From an uncultured Pelagibacteraceae bacterium (GTDB lineage: Bacteria; Pseudomonadota; Alphaproteobacteria; Pelagibacterales; Pelagibacteraceae): 32,775 nucleotides of DNA. Position 1 is the stretch's first letter; every line of letters starts with the position of its first letter. The stretch covers positions 1 to 32,775 of the forward strand of contig CACCFV010000009.1 in assembly GCA_902544985.1 (NCBI GenBank), read 5' to 3'. A program made the position numbers and the translations under genes. Shown here in pieces: positions 5,363-28,830 of this stretch. The notes beneath the pieces were generated by a model. It was not told the origin of the DNA. It saw only the letters and a list, made by a program, of their open reading frames with translations, and did not search any database.

Positions 5363-6196
5363 TTAGGTAATAGGTGGGTATTTAATAATTATTTCGTTCA
5401 ACCAAGTTTGTATATTTCTTATTCTACTATCAGATGAAGGATGCGTACTCATAAATTGAGGAGGTTCCTTTCCTTTATTCTCTTCTTTCATCCTTTCCCA
5501 TATTTTTTCAGTTTCTCTAATATCATAACCAGATAAAGAGGAAAAAATCATACCTAAATAATCAGCTTCACTTTCCTGTTTTCTATTGAAAGGATTCATT
5601 ATACCAATTGAGGAAATTAGACCAACAGTGTCCATACCAGTTGATCGATTAATTTGACTTAGGGCCCCACCACTGAAAATATCAATTAGTGTAGTGCCTG
5701 TTTGTACCAGAACTCCACGACTTGCTCTTTCAACGGAATGTTTTGCAACAGCATGAGCAATCTCATGACCCATAACAGCCGCTAATCCATTGGTATTTTT
5801 TGTAATTTTAAGCATACCACTATAAACAGCAATTTTACCTCCCGGCATACACCAAGCATTTTTGATTTTATCATTATCAATTAAAATATATTCCCACTTA
5901 AAATTTGCTGTTGGATCTGGAAGATTTGATTTATCAAAATAAATTGATATTGCATCTTCCATCTTTTTCCCTATTTCTTTTATTTCATTAATAGATTTTG
6001 TATCTTTGATTAATTTTTCTTTTTCTTTTATTTTTTCATAAATTTGGGCTGCCTGAGCATTTAATTTTGCTTCTGGGATTAACTTTAGTTGTTTTCTATC
6101 TGTAATTGGAGCGGTAGTACAAGAGTTAATTACAATACCACAACAACCACAACCCACATATGTTAAAAATTTTCTTCTATTCATTTTGTAAGACAT
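5363..6196 (-). CDS. M48 family metallopeptidase, Tat-type lipoprotein signal
   Basis: Zinc endopeptidase of the M48 family (BepA/LoiP/Oma1-like group), likely envelope quality control. The zinc motif HEIAH is at residues 144-148 and the third ligand lies in ESEADYLGM. The N-terminus reads NRRKFLTYVGCG (twin-arginine motif, residues 6-17), then a hydrophobic run ending in a lipobox-like VINSC (Cys26). This suggests Tat export and lipid anchoring at the inner or outer membrane. No TPR domain follows, so it is the short form (277 aa). Met5 (MNRRKF) is an equally plausible start. Only 15 bp separate it from the divergent leader ORF at 6212. Confidence 0.92.
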   Translation of the reverse strand: MSYKMNRRKFLTYVGCGCCGIVINSCTTAPITDRKQLKLIPEAKLNAQAAQIYEKIKEKEKLIKDTKSINEIKEIGKKMEDAISIYFDKSNLPDPTANFKWEYILIDNDKIKNAWCMPGGKIAVYSGMLKITKNTNGLAAVMGHEIAHAVAKHSVERASRGVLVQTGTTLIDIFSGGALSQINRSTGMDTVGLISSIGIMNPFNRKQESEADYLGMIFSSLSGYDIRETEKIWERMKEENKGKEPPQFMSTHPSSDSRIRNIQTWLNEIIIKYPPIT

Positions 6197-6909: not shown

Positions 6910-8951
6910 GCAATATCATTAATTATATCAGCTCTATCGTATAATTTAATTAATGGTTTGAATTTACTAATATCTTCATTACGACTTTCAATTCTTTTTA
7001 TTTCTTTTTCAGCTAAAATAAAAAGATTATGATTGTGAATTGGATCAGCTAACTTAAAGTTTTTTATTCCACTTTGTTTGAAACCTAAAATATCCCCAAA
7101 ACCTCTCAATTTCATATCCTCTTCCGATATCTTAAAACCATCATTAGAGTCTTTAAGTATATTAATTCTTTTTTTTGCATTATCACTTAAATTTGACTTA
7201 AACATTAAAATACATGATGATTCTTTATTACCTCTCCCAACTCTACCTCTGAGCTGATGTAGTTGAGATAAACCAAATTTATTTGCATTTTCAATAATTA
7301 TTACATTTGCGTTAGGGAAATCAATACCAACTTCAATTATAGTAGTCGAAACCAAAATCTTAAATTCATTTTTTAAGAATTTGTTTAAGATCACTTCCTT
7401 TTCATCAGTTGTAGTTTTACCGTGAAGTAAAAAAACTTGTTTAGGAAATAATTTATTTAAATATTCAGATTTTTTAATTGCAGAAGAATGATCAATCTTT
7501 TTAGACTCTTCAATTAAAGGACAAACCCAAAATATTTGATTTCCTAGTTTGATTTCTTTTTTTACAAATTTTATTACATCATCAATTTTATCTTCGAGTT
7601 TGCTATAAGTCTTTACAGGTTTACGAATATTCGGTTTTTCACGAATAATTGAAAGATCCATATCACCATAAATTGTCATTGTTAAAGTACGTGGGATTGG
7701 TGTAGCAGTCATCAAAAGAACATCACAATCTTTCCCAGCTTTATCAGATAATTTTTTTCTTTGATTTACTCCAAATTTATGTTGTTCATCTATTATTATT
7801 AATCCAAGTTTTTTAAATTCAACTTTTTTTTGGAAAAGTGCATGTGTTCCAAAAATTATATCAATTTGTTTATTAGATATTTTGTTGAGGATTATTTTCT
7901 TATCTTTGTAAGAAGATTTACCAGATAGTAAATCAATCTTAATATTTTGAGAAAATAGCTTTTTAGCTAAAAGAAAATGTTGTCTAGCTAATATTTCAGT
8001 TGGTGCCATTACTGCTACCTGAAAACCAGAGTTAACTGTATTAAATGCAGATAGCAAAGATACAATTGTTTTTCCACTGCCTACATCACCCTGAAGTAGC
8101 CTAAACATCTTATTTTCAGAGCATAAATCTTTATTTATTTCGCTTAATGTTTTATTTTGGTCATTTGTTAATGAAAAATTAAGTTTAGATATAATTTCAT
8201 TTTGTTTTTTTATATCAAAAATTTTTTTTGTTTTTTTTATTCTTTTAATTTTTTTTCGTATTTCAGAATTTACTAAAAATGTGGAGAAAATTTCATCATA
8301 AGCAAGTCTTTGATAAAAATTTTCTTTAAATTTACCGATATTTTCTGGTTCATGTAATTTTTTGATAGAGTCATTCCAACTTATATTGTTGAATTTTTTC
8401 AATATATCTTTTGAATGCCATTCTTCAATTTGAGGTAAATTATTTATTATTTGTAAAATTATCTTATTATAAACTTTTTCACTGATTCCCTCAGTTAATG
8501 AATAGCTATTATGTTTTTGTTTAATTATCGAAGAGTCCTCTGAAATATATTTTGGATTTGTTAATTGATACTTATTTCTAAAATATTTGATTTTACCACT
8601 TATAGTTACTTCTTTGCCAATTGGTAATATTTTTTTGATGTAGCCTTCGTAACTGTTAAAAAAAACACAATCTATTTCACCAGTGTCGTCTTTACACAAA
8701 ACTCTATTTGGTAAGTTCCTAACTCTTGGGAATGAATATTTAAGAGGTATTATGGTTATGGTCTGTATTTCATCTATCTTTAAATCTTTTATTTTAGATG
8801 ATAAACTTCTATCAGTGTAGGATTTTGGCAATTTCCATAATAAATCAAAAATAGTATTTATCTTTTTTCTCTTTAATAAATTCGAAGTTTTAGTTCCTAC
8901 ACCTTTTAATAAATTGAGATCAGACAATAAATATTCATAATTTCTTTTCAT
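6906..8951 (-). CDS. recG: ATP-dependent DNA helicase RecG
   Basis: Superfamily 2 helicase that regresses stalled forks and processes branched DNA. The N-terminal wedge/OB domain covers about residues 1-260 (start LLSDLNLLKGVGTKTSNLLKRK). The helicase core has Walker A LLQGDVGSGKT, TEILARQH, DEQH (IIDEQHKFGVNQR), motif III TATPIPRTL, and motif VI HQLRGRVGRGNK. The C-terminal GFGDILGFKQSG region is also typical. At 681 aa it is close to the usual 690-700. It is divergent from sdhE with a 28-bp gap, so any promoters must overlap the coding sequences. Confidence 0.97.
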   Translation of the reverse strand: MKRNYEYLLSDLNLLKGVGTKTSNLLKRKKINTIFDLLWKLPKSYTDRSLSSKIKDLKIDEIQTITIIPLKYSFPRVRNLPNRVLCKDDTGEIDCVFFNSYEGYIKKILPIGKEVTISGKIKYFRNKYQLTNPKYISEDSSIIKQKHNSYSLTEGISEKVYNKIILQIINNLPQIEEWHSKDILKKFNNISWNDSIKKLHEPENIGKFKENFYQRLAYDEIFSTFLVNSEIRKKIKRIKKTKKIFDIKKQNEIISKLNFSLTNDQNKTLSEINKDLCSENKMFRLLQGDVGSGKTIVSLLSAFNTVNSGFQVAVMAPTEILARQHFLLAKKLFSQNIKIDLLSGKSSYKDKKIILNKISNKQIDIIFGTHALFQKKVEFKKLGLIIIDEQHKFGVNQRKKLSDKAGKDCDVLLMTATPIPRTLTMTIYGDMDLSIIREKPNIRKPVKTYSKLEDKIDDVIKFVKKEIKLGNQIFWVCPLIEESKKIDHSSAIKKSEYLNKLFPKQVFLLHGKTTTDEKEVILNKFLKNEFKILVSTTIIEVGIDFPNANVIIIENANKFGLSQLHQLRGRVGRGNKESSCILMFKSNLSDNAKKRINILKDSNDGFKISEEDMKLRGFGDILGFKQSGIKNFKLADPIHNHNLFILAEKEIKRIESRNEDISKFKPLIKLYDRADIINDIA

Positions 8952-9246: not shown

Positions 9247-9336
9247 TGGCGGAGAGACTGGGATTCGAACCCAGGAAAGAGTTGCCCCTTTGCCGGTTTT
9301 CAAGACCGGTGCTTTCAACCACTCAGCCATCTCTCC
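9247..9336 (-). tRNA. tRNA-Ser, anticodon UGA
   Basis: Read on the minus strand: acceptor GGAGAGA/TCTCTCC, discriminator G, encoded CCA at 9247-9249, D-arm, anticodon stem ACCGG/CCGGC-type with loop CTTGAAA (anticodon TGA), a long class II variable arm and T-arm TTCGAAT. The 5' half of this gene, from the anticodon loop outward, is repeated at 10802-10845. The open reading frame that crosses the gene on the plus strand is an artefact. Confidence 0.96.
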
Positions 9337-9341
9337 GTGAG
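9298..9341. repeat. tRNA-Ser 5'-half direct repeat, copy 1 (att-like)
   Basis: Forty-four bases, from the anticodon loop (TTTCAAGACCGG) through the tRNA 5' end and 5 bp beyond (GTGAG), recur at 10802-10845 with a single mismatch (A9321 versus G10825). Similarity continues outward for about 35 bp (26 of 35 identical, including a shared TTCAACCA). This copy is part of the intact tRNA-Ser. The identity begins exactly in the anticodon loop, a known integration point for tyrosine recombinases. Confidence 0.9.
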
Positions 9342-9410
9342 CAAGGTTTTATAAGTATATTATTAAAATTCAACCAAAAAACAGAATATTTTTTTTCAAA
9401 AATTTTAATA

Positions 9411-9433
9411 TTGTCTCTAGTTTGTCTCTAGTT
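9411..9433 (+). repeat. Island inner direct repeat, left copy
   Basis: Two tandem units of TTTGTCTCTAG (the first lacking its initial T) followed by TT; the 23 bp are identical to 10663-10685 in the same orientation. It lies 20 bp before the first island ORF. It could be a recombinase arm site, a cassette boundary or a regulatory repeat. Confidence 0.85.
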
Positions 9434-9453
9434 ATCCTATAAAATCCTACAAT

Positions 9454-9585
9454 ATGAATCTTACGAAAGGTTTTGCAATTTTATTTGTTTGTTTGATTGT
9501 GATTGCTAAAGTTTCATCAAAGGTAGTACCCACATCTGCAAAAACTTTAAGAGCAACATCACCAGAAATCTCAAAGTCTGAATGA
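9454..9585 (+). CDS. 43-aa hydrophobic-N-terminus peptide, island gene 1
   Basis: ATG at 9454 opens a 43-codon frame: MNLTKGFAILFVCLIVIAKV, then a polar tail rich in Ser, Thr and Lys. One hydrophobic segment (about residues 6-19) suggests a signal anchor or a secreted peptide. Its TGA overlaps the ATG of the next gene in an ATGA junction, exactly as the later island genes do, which is the main support that it is real. No family is recognised. Confidence 0.55.
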   Translation: MNLTKGFAILFVCLIVIAKVSSKVVPTSAKTLRATSPEISKSE

Positions 9586-9800
9586 AAAATTATAAAAAAA
9601 AAAGAAAAAAATATCCTGGTAGAATGACTAAATTGGAAATGCTTAAGTTTGAAAAAGAAAGACTTAAATGGGAATTAGACAAAACCAAAAAAGAAAGTGA
9701 TGATTTTTTTAAGATGATTATATTTGTTATAGGTTTATTTTTACTTTCTTATCTATTGGGTTTCTGGGGTACAGAAAGTGGACCAGCATGGAAATTATAA
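9582..9800 (+). CDS. 72-aa coiled-coil/single-TM protein, island gene 2
   Basis: Unrecognised protein. A very basic start (MKNYKKKRKKYPGR) is followed by a charged heptad-like helix (about residues 16-42, TKLEMLKFEKERLKWELDKT) that could form a coiled coil, then one TM helix (about 44-62, MIIFVIGLFLLSYLLGF) and a short tail. The likely topology is N-terminus in the cytosol. Overlap by ATGA with gene 1 and a 4-bp gap to gene 3 place it in the island operon. Confidence 0.7.
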   Translation: MKNYKKKRKKYPGRMTKLEMLKFEKERLKWELDKTKKESDDFFKMIIFVIGLFLLSYLLGFWGTESGPAWKL

Positions 9801-9804
9801 AATT

Positions 9805-10053
9805 ATGACATTTAAATGCCCCGAGTGTGGAAGTAAGAATGATAAAATAAGAGGATATGAGTTCTTTGCTAAAGATTTAGAGCCATCTGATCCTTGGTCA
9901 CAAGAATTTGAATTTATTAATTGTCCAAAATGCATAAGATCTATACCTGGATCACTAGGTTATCGATATGGTAAAACAAAAACGTACGATAAAGCTAAGA
10001 AAAAGTGGAATGATAAGTTTAAAAATCTATTTAGAGAGTATTTAGTTAAATGA
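9805..10053 (+). CDS. 82-aa zinc-ribbon protein, island gene 3
   Basis: Small cytosolic protein with two CxxC knuckles, CPECGSKN near the N-terminus and CPKC about 40 residues later, forming a probable zinc ribbon; the C-terminal third is Lys-rich (KTKTYDKAKKKWNDKFKN). No named family is recognised. ATG 9805 is preferred, 4 bp after the previous stop, because it places MTFKCPECG at the N-terminus. A GTG at 9778 would add nine residues overlapping gene 2. Its TGA overlaps the next ATG. Confidence 0.7.
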   Translation: MTFKCPECGSKNDKIRGYEFFAKDLEPSDPWSQEFEFINCPKCIRSIPGSLGYRYGKTKTYDKAKKKWNDKFKNLFREYLVK

Positions 10054-10652
10054 ATAAAATCAACTACACGATCGTACAAATGAGTGATGGATCTATACTT
10101 GTGGGAAATATTATCAATGGCAAGGCAGAAGGTCATGGATGGCTGATATCGGAACCAAAATACGAAGGTGAATTTAAGAATAATCTAAAGCATGGTTCAG
10201 GAAGATTATTTTATGCAGATGGAATGAAAACAATTGCAGAATTCAAAAATGGTAATATTCATGGACATGCACTTACATATGTTCCGTCAAATAATGATAT
10301 ATTAGATCAGCAATATATTGACGGTGTATTAGTTAGTATTGAGAAATCTAATCAAGATGGCTCAGGTGCTATATCAAAAAAAAATATCAATGGTCAATTT
10401 GATGGTATGCAAACTTTTTTTTTAAAAGATGGAACCAGTCATCAAGTTTTATATGAAAATGGAAATAAAATTAAACATCCAAATACAGGAGATGTAGAAG
10501 GTGCGAGCTCTGATATATTACCAGGTATGATTCATAAAATAAAAAAAACTTTTGAAGATAACAAAAAAAAATTTGATGAAAAAATTATTTGGAATCTTCC
10601 ATTAGAAATTGAAAATCAAATTAGACAAAAGGTATCTAAAAATAAAAACTAA
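10050..10652 (+). CDS. MORN-repeat protein, island gene 4
   Basis: Contains MORN-type repeats: YEGEFKNNLKHGSGRLFYADG, AEFKNGNIHGHALTY, and weaker copies such as VGNIINGKAEGHGWL and NINGQFDGMQTFFLKDG. Together they cover about residues 12-140. A charged helical tail follows (IHKIKKTFEDNKKKFDEKI). MORN repeats form beta-hairpin arrays used for lipid or protein binding; no enzymatic domain is present. No signal peptide is seen, so it is probably cytosolic, perhaps working with the membrane proteins encoded upstream (inference). It starts in an ATGA overlap with gene 3 and ends 10 bp before the right direct repeat. Confidence 0.75.
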   Translation: MNKINYTIVQMSDGSILVGNIINGKAEGHGWLISEPKYEGEFKNNLKHGSGRLFYADGMKTIAEFKNGNIHGHALTYVPSNNDILDQQYIDGVLVSIEKSNQDGSGAISKKNINGQFDGMQTFFLKDGTSHQVLYENGNKIKHPNTGDVEGASSDILPGMIHKIKKTFEDNKKKFDEKIIWNLPLEIENQIRQKVSKNKN

Positions 10653-10662
10653 TAACTCAATT

Positions 10663-10685
10663 TTGTCTCTAGTTTGTCTCTAGTT
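10663..10685 (+). repeat. Island inner direct repeat, right copy
   Basis: Identical over 23 bp to 9411-9433, with the same tandem TTTGTCTCTAG units. It begins 10 bp after the MORN gene stop. Neighbouring bases on either side do not match those around the left copy, so the repeat is sharply bounded. Confidence 0.85.
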
Positions 10686-10801
10686 TTGTAGCTTAGGCAA
10701 GCCAAGAATGATGCGTTTTTCGTAAAAGCAAAATTTCAAAAAATAAGCAATGACTTGATAAGTATGTGAATCGTCTTAAAGGGGGTAGAGGTTACTTGGA
10801 A

Positions 10802-10845
10802 TTTCAAGACCGGTGCTTTCAACCGCTCAGCCATCTCTCCGTGAG
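10802..10845. repeat. tRNA-Ser 5'-half direct repeat, copy 2 (tRNA relic)
   Basis: Truncated copy of the tRNA-Ser(UGA) 5' half in the same orientation as the intact gene. The T-arm, variable arm and 3' half are missing, so it is not a functional tRNA. The 10653-10922 interval otherwise holds only the right inner repeat and about 115 bp of unassigned sequence. The simplest reading is that this is the original 5' half displaced when the island entered and supplied a new one. Confidence 0.88.
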
Positions 10846-10922
10846 AAATCTTTTATAATTATAATTATTTAATTCAACCATAAAATAGTCTATTAAACAT
10901 TTATTATCTATTTCATCATTTT

Positions 10923-15282: not shown

Positions 15283-16208
15283 GCCTAAGTCCAATAAATC
15301 AAACTAATTTGTTTTCACTCGATAACTATCTGTTAGAATTTGTAGAACTTTATAAGAAAAAAAAATTACCAACAAAAATTTTACTTAGTGGTGACAAAGG
15401 TTTGGGCAAGTCAACTTTAGCATTTCATTTAGTAAACTATATATTGTCCATTAACGAAGAACATCCCTATATTTTCAAAGAATCTAAGATTAATCCTGAT
15501 AATAAATCTTATAAGCTTGCAATAAATGGATCAAATCCCAACTTATTATTAGTTGATGTTTTAAGCGAAAAAAAAAATATCGATATTAATCAAATTAGAG
15601 AATTGATTAATAACTTAAATAAATCATCTTTTAATACTAAGGAAAGATTTATAATTATAGATAATATCGAAACATTAAATATATCCTCTATCAATGCTCT
15701 TTTAAAAGTTTTAGAGGAACCACCATCAAACACTTATTTTATATTGATAAATAATGACAGATTTATTTTACCAACTTTAAAATCTAGATGTATCAATTTC
15801 AAAATATCTTTAGATCACAAAACTTCGATCTCGGTTATTAATAAAATTTTAGATGATGATATTATGAAATTTATTAATAAAGATTTGATAAACTACTATT
15901 TAACACCCGGGCAAATATATCATTTAATAGAATTTTTTAAATTACAGAAACATGATCTTAAGGATTATGATTTAAAAAGTTTTATTAAACTTGTTATTAA
16001 AGATAATTTATATAAAAAAAATGTCTTAATTAAGAATATAATATTTGAGTATTTAGAGTTTTATTTTCGAACAAAAGTAAAATTGGCAAAATTAAGAACT
16101 TTTGAATATTATGATTATTTTTTAAAAAGAATAAATGATACTAAAAAATTTAATTTAGATGAAGAGTCTTTATTTATGGAATTTGAATATAAAATTTTAA
16201 ATGGATAA
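15279..16208 (+). CDS. holB: DNA polymerase III delta-prime subunit
   Basis: Clamp-loader subunit of the replicase. The AAA+ N-domain has LLSGDKGLGKSTLAFHLVNY (P-loop), the sensor-like IIIDNIETLNISSINALLK, and the delta-prime signature LKVLEEPPSNTYFIL with LPTLKSRC. The C-terminal collar region (about 210-309) is poorly conserved, as usual. The zinc cysteines of the E. coli form are not visible, which is common in alphaproteobacteria. The gene overlaps metG by 8 bp. Confidence 0.92.
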   Translation: MSLSPINQTNLFSLDNYLLEFVELYKKKKLPTKILLSGDKGLGKSTLAFHLVNYILSINEEHPYIFKESKINPDNKSYKLAINGSNPNLLLVDVLSEKKNIDINQIRELINNLNKSSFNTKERFIIIDNIETLNISSINALLKVLEEPPSNTYFILINNDRFILPTLKSRCINFKISLDHKTSISVINKILDDDIMKFINKDLINYYLTPGQIYHLIEFFKLQKHDLKDYDLKSFIKLVIKDNLYKKNVLIKNIIFEYLEFYFRTKVKLAKLRTFEYYDYFLKRINDTKKFNLDEESLFMEFEYKILNG

Positions 16209-27880: not shown

Positions 27881-28830
27881 ATCTTAATTTTATTCAAAGC
27901 ATTATTCTTAAATATATTTGCTTCTTTGATATATCTTCTGACCATTTGTGTTGATTTATGTCCTGTCATAGCCATTATACTTCTTTCATCCGCACCAGAA
28001 TCAGCAGCAACTGTTGCAAATCCTGACCTTAAACTGTGACCAGCAAAGTTTTTATTTTCAATGCCTGATAAGCTTAAATATTTTTTTATTAACAGAGCTA
28101 CAGATTGGTCAGTTAATCTTTTATCTGTTAAAGATGAACCTTTAGAAAATCTTCTAAAAATAGGTCCTGACCTAATTTTTGAAATTTCTAACCATTTTTT
28201 TAAGTTGGTTACTGGACAGTAAATTTCATTTGTGAAGTAGGGCAGTCCTTTGGTCATTCCTTCACCAAATTGGTCAGTTTTTGATCTTTTAATATTGATT
28301 TTAAGACCTTCAGGAACAAATTCTAAGTCCTCATGATCTATTGAAATCAGTTCAGTTCTTCTAAAACCGCCTCCGAAGCCAATTAAAATTATTGATTTGT
28401 CTCTTAACTTATTTATTTCTTCAGTTTTTAATTCATTTATTACATTAATAATTAATTTTAAATGATTGATTAATATAGGTTTTTTACCTTTCTGAATGCT
28501 TCCTTTCACCCTTCTTATGCCCATTAAATTCTCAACTATAATCGGATGTTTGGTATCTAAATAATGCCCTTTAAGTTTATGCAACATGCTTATTGATACT
28601 AATCTTCGTCTTAATGTGCTTATTTTTGAGTTTTTAGATAGATGAGTAAGGTACAAGGAAACTATTTTTGGTTCAGTAGGCAATGAACTTAAACCATGCT
28701 TTGCACAAAAAGCCCCAAAATCTTTGAAATCAGATTTATAAGCTCTTAAAGTGTTATTTGCCTTGGAGCTTTTGAGGTTATTTAAAGTTGCCTCATGTAG
28801 TGATTTTAGGTCTGTTGTTAACTCATTCAT
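27877..28830 (-). CDS. Tyrosine recombinase (phage-type integrase)
   Basis: Site-specific recombinase of 317 aa. The N-terminal SAM-like core-binding domain (about 10-100) includes NTLRAYKSDFKDFGAFCAKHG. The catalytic domain has Arg157 (GGGFRRTEL), Lys184 (RSKTDQFG), His265 and Arg268 (HSLRSG), His291 (GHKS) and nucleophile Tyr300 (VRRYIKEA), all in order, so it looks intact. It is not XerC/XerD by context and stands alone beside glycan genes. The nested dyad at 28832-28870 is directly upstream and could be its operator or a recombination site. Confidence 0.95.
   Translation of the reverse strand: MNELTTDLKSLHEATLNNLKSSKANNTLRAYKSDFKDFGAFCAKHGLSSLPTEPKIVSLYLTHLSKNSKISTLRRRLVSISMLHKLKGHYLDTKHPIIVENLMGIRRVKGSIQKGKKPILINHLKLIINVINELKTEEINKLRDKSIILIGFGGGFRRTELISIDHEDLEFVPEGLKINIKRSKTDQFGEGMTKGLPYFTNEIYCPVTNLKKWLEISKIRSGPIFRRFSKGSSLTDKRLTDQSVALLIKKYLSLSGIENKNFAGHSLRSGFATVAADSGADERSIMAMTGHKSTQMVRRYIKEANIFKNNALNKIKI

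Follow-up and report, generated by a model that had tools for sequence, protein, structure and literature searches.

The nearest described case that was found for the locus reported here is that of the Dehalococcoides ssrA islands, in which tandem islands with and without an integration module occupy one RNA gene. In the available part of that report, 16 of 31 such islands carry the integration module (PMC3146451). The present locus lies on a 32,775-nucleotide stretch of DNA (the window) from an uncultured Pelagibacteraceae bacterium (assembly GCA_902544985.1, contig CACCFV010000009.1), in which a 1.5-kb island occupies a tRNA-Ser(TGA) gene. Judged from its sequence, this island is integrative but lacks an integrase, and it belongs to a family that has tRNA-Ser(TGA) as its target in SAR11 (Pelagibacter-type) genomes. 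The Dehalococcoides islands differ, according to the same part of the report, in using a serine recombinase and the 3' part of the tmRNA (PMC3146451), whereas the islands here appear to use a tyrosine-type enzyme and the tRNA 5' half and have element-specific paired arms. We consider it probable (roughly 0.78) that these minimal islands retain the two attachment (att) ends of satellite-like elements, and that satellite integrases of the matching arm specificity mobilise them in trans.

Cis-mobilizable elements (CIMEs) and pseudo-staphylococcal cassette chromosome (pseudo-SCC) elements retain their sites, have lost their enzyme and are moved by a relative. The same is described, in the available part of the source, for clusters of attC sites lacking integron-integrases (CALIN) and miniature inverted-repeat transposable elements (MITEs) (PMC11389934). 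These elements originate from integrons, insertion sequences, integrative and conjugative elements or SCC, unlike the islands here, which apparently derive from satellite-like tRNA elements and whose arm classes would need to match the helper. Both att ends are kept and mobility genes are absent, as expected of a trans-mobilised minimal element of the CIME type. By this comparison, the islands would stand to satellite-like integrative elements as CALIN, MITEs or CIMEs do to the elements that gave rise to them, with the sites kept and the enzyme borrowed.

Integration into tRNA 5' regions was reportedly treated by Zhao and Williams in 2002. As in such integration, the element here supplies the 5' part and the upstream side, but here a whole family is found at two tRNAs and possibly one protein gene. 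The available part of a further source describes 5' integration as considerably less frequent than 3' integration (PMC6563490). Like the phage satellites of marine bacteria, namely phage-inducible chromosomal minimalist islands (PICMI), virion-encapsidated integrative mobile elements (VEIME) and tycheposons, the islands are small and site specific, have longer relatives with integrase and primase and in some cases carry defence genes among their cargo. Unlike these satellites, they have no integrase, primase or recognised regulator. No earlier report of this island family was found in a literature search, which did not cover the original tycheposon and VEIME papers.

The tRNA-Ser(TGA) island and its empty sites

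A preliminary description of this DNA had claimed a 44-bp repeat with one mismatch, covering the 5' end region of tRNA-Ser, with its copies 1.5 kb apart. The repeat is real: positions 9298 to 9341 recur at 10802 to 10845 with 43 of 44 nucleotides identical, and chance is ruled out as the source of this identity. The further similarity that had been claimed also exists, at about 73%, but it extends over 49 nt, slightly more than the 35 bp given; the 93 nt as a whole (9298 to 9390 versus 10802 to 10894) are 85% identical. As had been stated, the identity begins with the anticodon loop, at the first of its 7 nt (Table 1), and arm-like repeats flank this core. The displaced copy contains the identical 7 bp of the loop, but other outer sequence adjoins it. 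Native upstream DNA lies by the displaced copy and element-type DNA by the intact tRNA, indicating that the element supplies both the 5' half and the promoter side, in agreement with the earlier proposal. By its sequence, the island sits in the anticodon loop, where it has brought a new tRNA 5' half and upstream DNA and left the old ones at its right end. A regenerated tRNA with a displaced fragment at the opposite end, as in tRNA-targeted islands, is present; an integrase encoded within the element, also usual for such islands, is not. The preliminary description lacked the feature that is most informative, namely the tandem 11-mer (TTGTCTCTAGT x2) present at both ends.

The sdhE - tRNA-Ser - rarD locus was compared, as that description had proposed, after RarD had been used to retrieve 80 named contigs, all titled as SAR11 and most of them from Pelagibacteraceae; the scoring was based on tRNA-Ser and rarD and left the sdhE matches aside. 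The tRNA-Ser site was empty in 60 loci, occupied in 12 and unscorable in 8, where the tRNA-Ser was out of reach. The gap between tRNA-Ser and rarD was 82 to 156 bp in 60 of the 80 loci and larger in 12. When the flanks of the window island were joined, they aligned without gaps to the empty locus L033 over 405 bp, with 95.6% identity. Occupied loci with recognisable ends had the empty-site upstream region by the displaced half and the element-type region by the intact tRNA. Among the 12 occupied loci, L035 and L051 keep the left arm while the right end is missing or decayed, and arms were not seen in L061 and L100. The comparison yielded empty sites as well as different cargo enclosed by the same repeats; the contrary outcome that had been named, in which both tRNA copies would be conserved vertically and no site would be empty, was not seen.

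A vertically inherited local duplication at the 5' side of the tRNA, involving no mobile element, would account for the repeat itself and for nothing else. It is refuted by the empty sites, and the difference in cargo between islands and the presence of a 99.4% identical copy in distant hosts also contradict it, leaving it hardly any credence. L098, L158 and L166 have a larger gene block upstream of rarD, by eye with caspase-like and trypsin-like proteins.

The left neighbour of the island encodes an SdhE-type protein (PF03937). At about 10748 to 10760, the right end of the island matches the consensus of integration host factor (IHF).

Table 1. Features of the tRNA-Ser(TGA) island in the window (ORF, open reading frame)
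Feature	Position	Strand	Remark
tRNA-Ser(TGA)	9247-9336	minus	anticodon 9300-9302; 3' half 9247-9297 chromosomal, 5' half 9298-9336 element-supplied
Anticodon loop TTTCAAG	9298-9304		probable crossover (overlap) region of attL
Element-type upstream region of tRNA-Ser (promoter side)	9342-9390	minus	unlike native region of empty sites
Left tandem arm TTGTCTCTAGT x2	9411-9432	plus	+113 from core
TATCCTATAAAATCCTA motif	9433-9449	plus	immediately after left arm
Cargo ORF, 43 aa (MNLTKGFAILF...)	9454-9585	plus	start resembles 160-aa ORF of island L035
Cargo ORF, 72 aa	9582-9800	plus	no assigned function
Cargo ORF, 91 aa, zinc-ribbon-like	9778-10053	plus	weak, under Pfam cut-offs; relatives in L035 and L162
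Cargo ORF, 200 aa, MORN repeats	10050-10652	plus	relative in L162
Right tandem arm TTGTCTCTAGT x2	10663-10684	plus	-139 from displaced core
Conserved right end of element	10685-10801	plus	contains IHF-consensus match at ~10748-10760
Displaced chromosomal 5' half of tRNA-Ser (attR)	10802-10845	minus	copy of 9298-9341 with one mismatch
Native tRNA upstream region	10846-10900	minus	as at empty sites, by comparison with these

Paired arm-like repeats in the island family

The sister islands carry other cargo, some of them form tandem arrays, and distant hosts hold nearly identical copies of one. The right end of the island was matched in 58 of 399 genomes of the genus; 36 of these were dropped as chance matches to about 20 to 40 bases of AT-rich sequence, leaving 22 of 399 at E < 1e-15. 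The exact displaced core occurred in 13 of 397 genomes of the order, every one of them in the window's genus. These genomes and the named contigs together supplied 35 island records with both ends, which yielded 28 distinct islands of 251 to 7,493 bp when islands with identical arms and length were counted once; L149, L157, L158, L162, L164 and L100, for which the two ends were not both available, were excluded.

The left arm lies at +112 to +114 from the core in 27 of the 28 islands, the remaining one having no clear arm; in all 28, the right arm lies between -136 and -139. The search windows were 20 nt wide, and an earlier pass with wider windows gave similar places. The arms fall into nine classes among the islands, the window's class being GTCTCTAG, yet they match at both ends of one island. 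The mean number of mismatches, of 12 positions, was 0.69 within an island versus 6.01 between islands (26 islands with both arms clear; the arms were extracted automatically, and the second element of L159 and L165 were left out because the left arm was unclear). With one island per class, none of 100,000 permutations of the nine classes gave agreement as good (p ~1e-5). Arm repeats on both sides at fixed spacing, as in a lambda-type attP, are thus found in the islands, and the paired 11-bp repeats would be the arm sites of an integrase. Of 20 other integrase loci of the genus that were scanned, 13 had a tRNA or tmRNA, and in 4 of these 13 a tandem 11-bp-spaced repeat was present at most 250 nt from it, compared with 0.6% in shuffles, which supports calling the islands' repeats arms.

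Of the 28 right ends, 16 share an IHF-consensus match at a common position, compared with about 1.2% per end in shuffles; the right ends are homologous, so these matches are not independent. The motif TATCCTATAAAATCC stands directly after the left arm, with at most 3 mismatches over 15 nt, in 23 of 26 islands. It is present at all three targets of the wider family, which are described below. In the satellites that were read, it was not seen immediately behind the arms. L169 (the same locus as L029) has at 7282 to 7533 a 251-bp element with both ends, one tandem arm and zero cargo, a nearly bare attP inserted at tRNA-Ser.

Tandem arrays of at least two elements were found in L094, L153, L159 and L313. 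The intact tRNA is at the left end of the arrays, in the window's orientation. In L153 and L159, differing arm classes occur inside one array, which argues against a single host enzyme.

Integrase-bearing relatives and the source of the recombinase

The earlier claim that no recombinase lies within the island was borne out, as none was found among its ORFs or by protein searches. Integrase, primase and regulator genes were all absent from the 1.5-kb island (the Pfam search covered two of the four cargo ORFs), and judged by gene content the window island itself is not a phage satellite. PF00589 scans of 30, 300, 21 and 34 genomes, in overlapping sets, mostly gave one Xer-length gene per matching genome among the matches listed, with Xer being a label based on gene length and place. 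The scans have blind spots: the L286 integrase fell under the cut-off, and the L313 integrase had no Pfam match at E 0.01. Since PF00589 partly misses satellite integrases, these scans cannot exclude them, and the absence rests on protein searches. By tblastn, six satellite integrases had no match in 41 island entries or in 18 tRNA-Leu stretches, and the three positive controls were found. With the L313 integrase as the query, none of 27 genomes chosen for islands matched, and both control genomes did. The L286 integrase matched 5 of 300 genomes of the genus, a set named only in part, and 1 of 23 further handles, which count at least two genomes twice (L103/G494 and L060/G366). In the window's own genome, the sole PF00589 match is a Xer-length recombinase at 27922 to 28443, 17 kb from the island, and single matches of this length recur in many genomes of the genus.

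The single match among the 23 handles was G342, at its tRNA-Ser locus (L313). From the intact tRNA-Ser core at 7006, the left arm TTGTCTCAAGTTTGTCTCAAGT of this element lies at +113 and right arms lie at -139 and -164, so the element shares the arm spacing of the islands. The displaced orphan core is at 16012, 9,006 bp from the intact core. The element encodes a primase of 751 aa, a RusA-like resolvase of 115 aa and an integrase of 558 aa (PHROGs matches), and its arm class GTCTCAAG is that of islands L034, L053, L147 and L169. Beyond it lies an integrase-less island with a different arm class and a caspase-domain protein. The suggestion of a satellite mobilised in trans is supported by the island anatomy and by this integrase-bearing relative at tRNA-Ser; the action in trans is what we infer from them.

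The motif AGTTATCCTATAAAATC occurred in 19 of 151 genomes, and in none with the reversed control, and led to islands at tRNA-Leu(TAA) and at a gene for a 75-aa protein. In the tRNA-Leu(TAA) islands, the left arm stands at +119 or +120, the right arm between -145 and -149; both arms match by eye in the nine elements in which both are readable, and three more have no recognised right arm. This parallel integrase-less set comprises L249-L251, L254, L258, L260-L264, L271-L273, L275, L278 and L280-L285, and GACT-rich repeats occur near the core of the right end. In L247, L248, L252, L255, L257 and L259, and in L276 and L277, the left-end motif and element-specific arms precede the gene for the 75-aa protein (MNKENASKLWKI...), the start of which is apparently a third, protein-coding target.

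Satellite-like relatives occur in IMG/VR contigs. A search of this database with the tRNA-Leu attP core gave 20 contigs, of which L286, L299, L301 and L304 were read as relatives, having this att type together with an integrase of 545 to 549 aa and a primase. The core was also present in L288 and L289. The remaining 14 viral contigs (L287, L290-L298, L300, L302, L303 and L305) have a different attP type for tRNA-Leu, in which GGACAC or CGCCAC repeats occur, and are presumably like T7-like cyanophages. L286 has a terminal repeat, and arm repeats are embedded in the opening codons of its integrase gene (143 onward), so that arm and protein sequence constrain each other. Integrated relatives at tRNA-Leu were found in G136, G184 and G218. 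Two arm classes are common to tRNA-Leu satellites and islands, TTTCTAG (L317; islands L271, L278 and L284) and ATCCTAG (L299; island L272), and the tRNA-Leu island L282 is clearly kin to two satellites (81 versus 35 and 66 versus 40 in shuffles). L286 and L304 have the common arm ACCCTAG, and L299 has ATCCTAG. Over integrase residues 79 to 108, L286 and L299, with their different arms, disagree at 13 of 30 positions (42 of 515 in the remainder, p 9e-7), and L286 and L304, with their common arm, at 3 of 30 (30 of 515, p 0.42). Satellites range from 7 to 20 kb in the available part of the source (PMC13376191), and both the G342 element (9,006 bp) and L286 (7,799 bp) combine integrase and primase within this size. 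The longer integrase-bearing element would be a phage satellite, and an L313-type integrase, or a relative with matching arm specificity, would act on the islands in trans.

The recombinase could instead be that of an ordinary temperate phage or the host Xer protein. The genus has about 20 further integrase loci, 4 of the 13 linked to a tRNA or tmRNA have the tandem repeat described above, and the Xer-length gene is the usual PF00589 match. Against this, no tRNA-Ser was found among the 13, and the tRNA-Ser(TGA) 5' half was absent from the 20 loci and from L201-L203. Exact tRNA-Ser attP cores were likewise absent from IMG/VR, and different arm classes stand in one array (L153 and L159). Such a source is therefore quite improbable, and satellite integrases remain the preferred one.

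Exact IMG/VR searches with the window's double arm, its right end, the tRNA-Ser attP core and the left motif gave no match. One further contig matching the tRNA-Ser attP core was read as chance, and the 39-mer core was found in four contigs, each holding a whole tRNA-Ser gene. An integrase-alignment scan of IMG/VR gave 237 pattern matches and zero relatives, tblastn in INPHARED gave 139 records, all below 60% identity, and blastn with the att ends gave hundreds of records, mostly tRNA-Ser genes among the matches listed.

Integrases were also seen at other tRNAs. In G174, a satellite-family integrase adjoins tRNA-Ser(GCT) (L309, 1933 to 2026), perhaps a further target, and the TGA-type tRNA-Ser 5' half was not found in that contig (L314). 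In G196 and G140, integrases adjoin, by eye, displaced 5' halves of tRNA-Gly, indicating 5' polarity elsewhere in the genus. In phage-like elements of L202 (6262 to 7360) and L203 (6399 to 7480), an integrase lies, by eye, beside a displaced tRNA-Gly 5' half.

Cargo, transfer between hosts and the wider reading

Pfam scans covered twenty cargo proteins, which had been picked for their size and interest, and ten of these were also compared with PADLOC. Restriction-modification genes of type III were found in L151 and of type IIG in L165, with a PLD/SNF2 helicase, and in L218. Other cargo includes NB-ARC ATPases (L050 and L153), a caspase-like protein (L156), a trypsin-like protein (L034), MORN proteins (the window and L094) and a glycosyltransferase with a phosphoesterase (L103). 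Five of the ten proteins (from L050, L055, L149 and two from L153) had no PADLOC match, so that 'defence-rich' is an impression and not the outcome of a test. For the island cargo in the window, the scans gave no defence function.

Over 3,210 bp, the L103 and L222 islands show 99.41% identity, against only 74.5% for rarD and 78.7% for 2.3 kb of the other, upstream flank. The L222 island is the L103 island by arms and length, and both have the window's arm class. Cells would exchange islands by virions, competence or both.

The islands might also be dead satellite remnants, with the cargo spreading only by homologous recombination (competence or transduction) through conserved ends and flanking genes. 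The conserved ends do offer homology, some ends are decayed (L051), and the right end is hybrid between L103 and L222. However, of the 28 distinct islands, 26 have both arms clear and in agreement, transfer between hosts with 75 to 79% identical flanks leaves short homologies only, and the intact tRNA is found at one end of the arrays. We regard dead remnants as unlikely, though less so than a phage or Xer enzyme, and mobilisation in trans by satellite integrases is preferred.

Several observations weigh against the preferred reading. The mismatches between L103 and L222 cluster in the final ~55 bp before the displaced core (L103, ~5820 to 5875). This hybrid right end fits a new insertion beside an older one, followed by loss via the conserved right ends, or plain homologous exchange; at that step, the difference matches homologous recombination in conserved ends. 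Among the elements that carry an integrase, none with the arm class of the window was found, and a single one was found at tRNA-Ser(TGA); the genomes are 52 to 100% complete, so a resident helper could be missed. Outside core and arms, the left ends of the window and L313 were not above shuffles (33 versus a best of 44), and the right ends were barely above them (45 versus 41, the best of 500). Among three other islands compared, the right end of L094 exceeded shuffles in comparison with L313 (41 versus 37), but those of L103 (38 versus 43) and L088 (33 versus 43) did not. The arm extraction rewards AGT ends, and the arms, being direct repeats, could partly be kept alike by gene conversion. 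Finally, the comparison of integrase residues 79 to 108 with the arms covers only three proteins, and the range was picked after their alignment had been viewed.

The islands would descend from satellite-like elements that lost almost all of the sequence between their arms and acquired cargo. A wider reading, for which we see the odds as even, is a two-tier parasitism in SAR11, the ocean's most abundant bacteria. Satellite-like elements would be parasitised by islands of 0.25 to 7.5 kb that keep only the att ends, have swappable cargo (some of it defence) and are stacked in an integron-like manner at an intact tRNA. An 11-bp arm code, read by the arm domain of the integrase and partly written in the first codons of the satellite integrase, would decide which satellite moves which island.

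SAR11 genomes are streamlined, and the movement of their variable and defence genes is poorly known. The island family offers a concrete vehicle with exact ends and a searchable signature, and its natural arm variants are usable for decoding arm recognition by integrases. The apparent pairing of minimal islands with satellite-like elements is testable.

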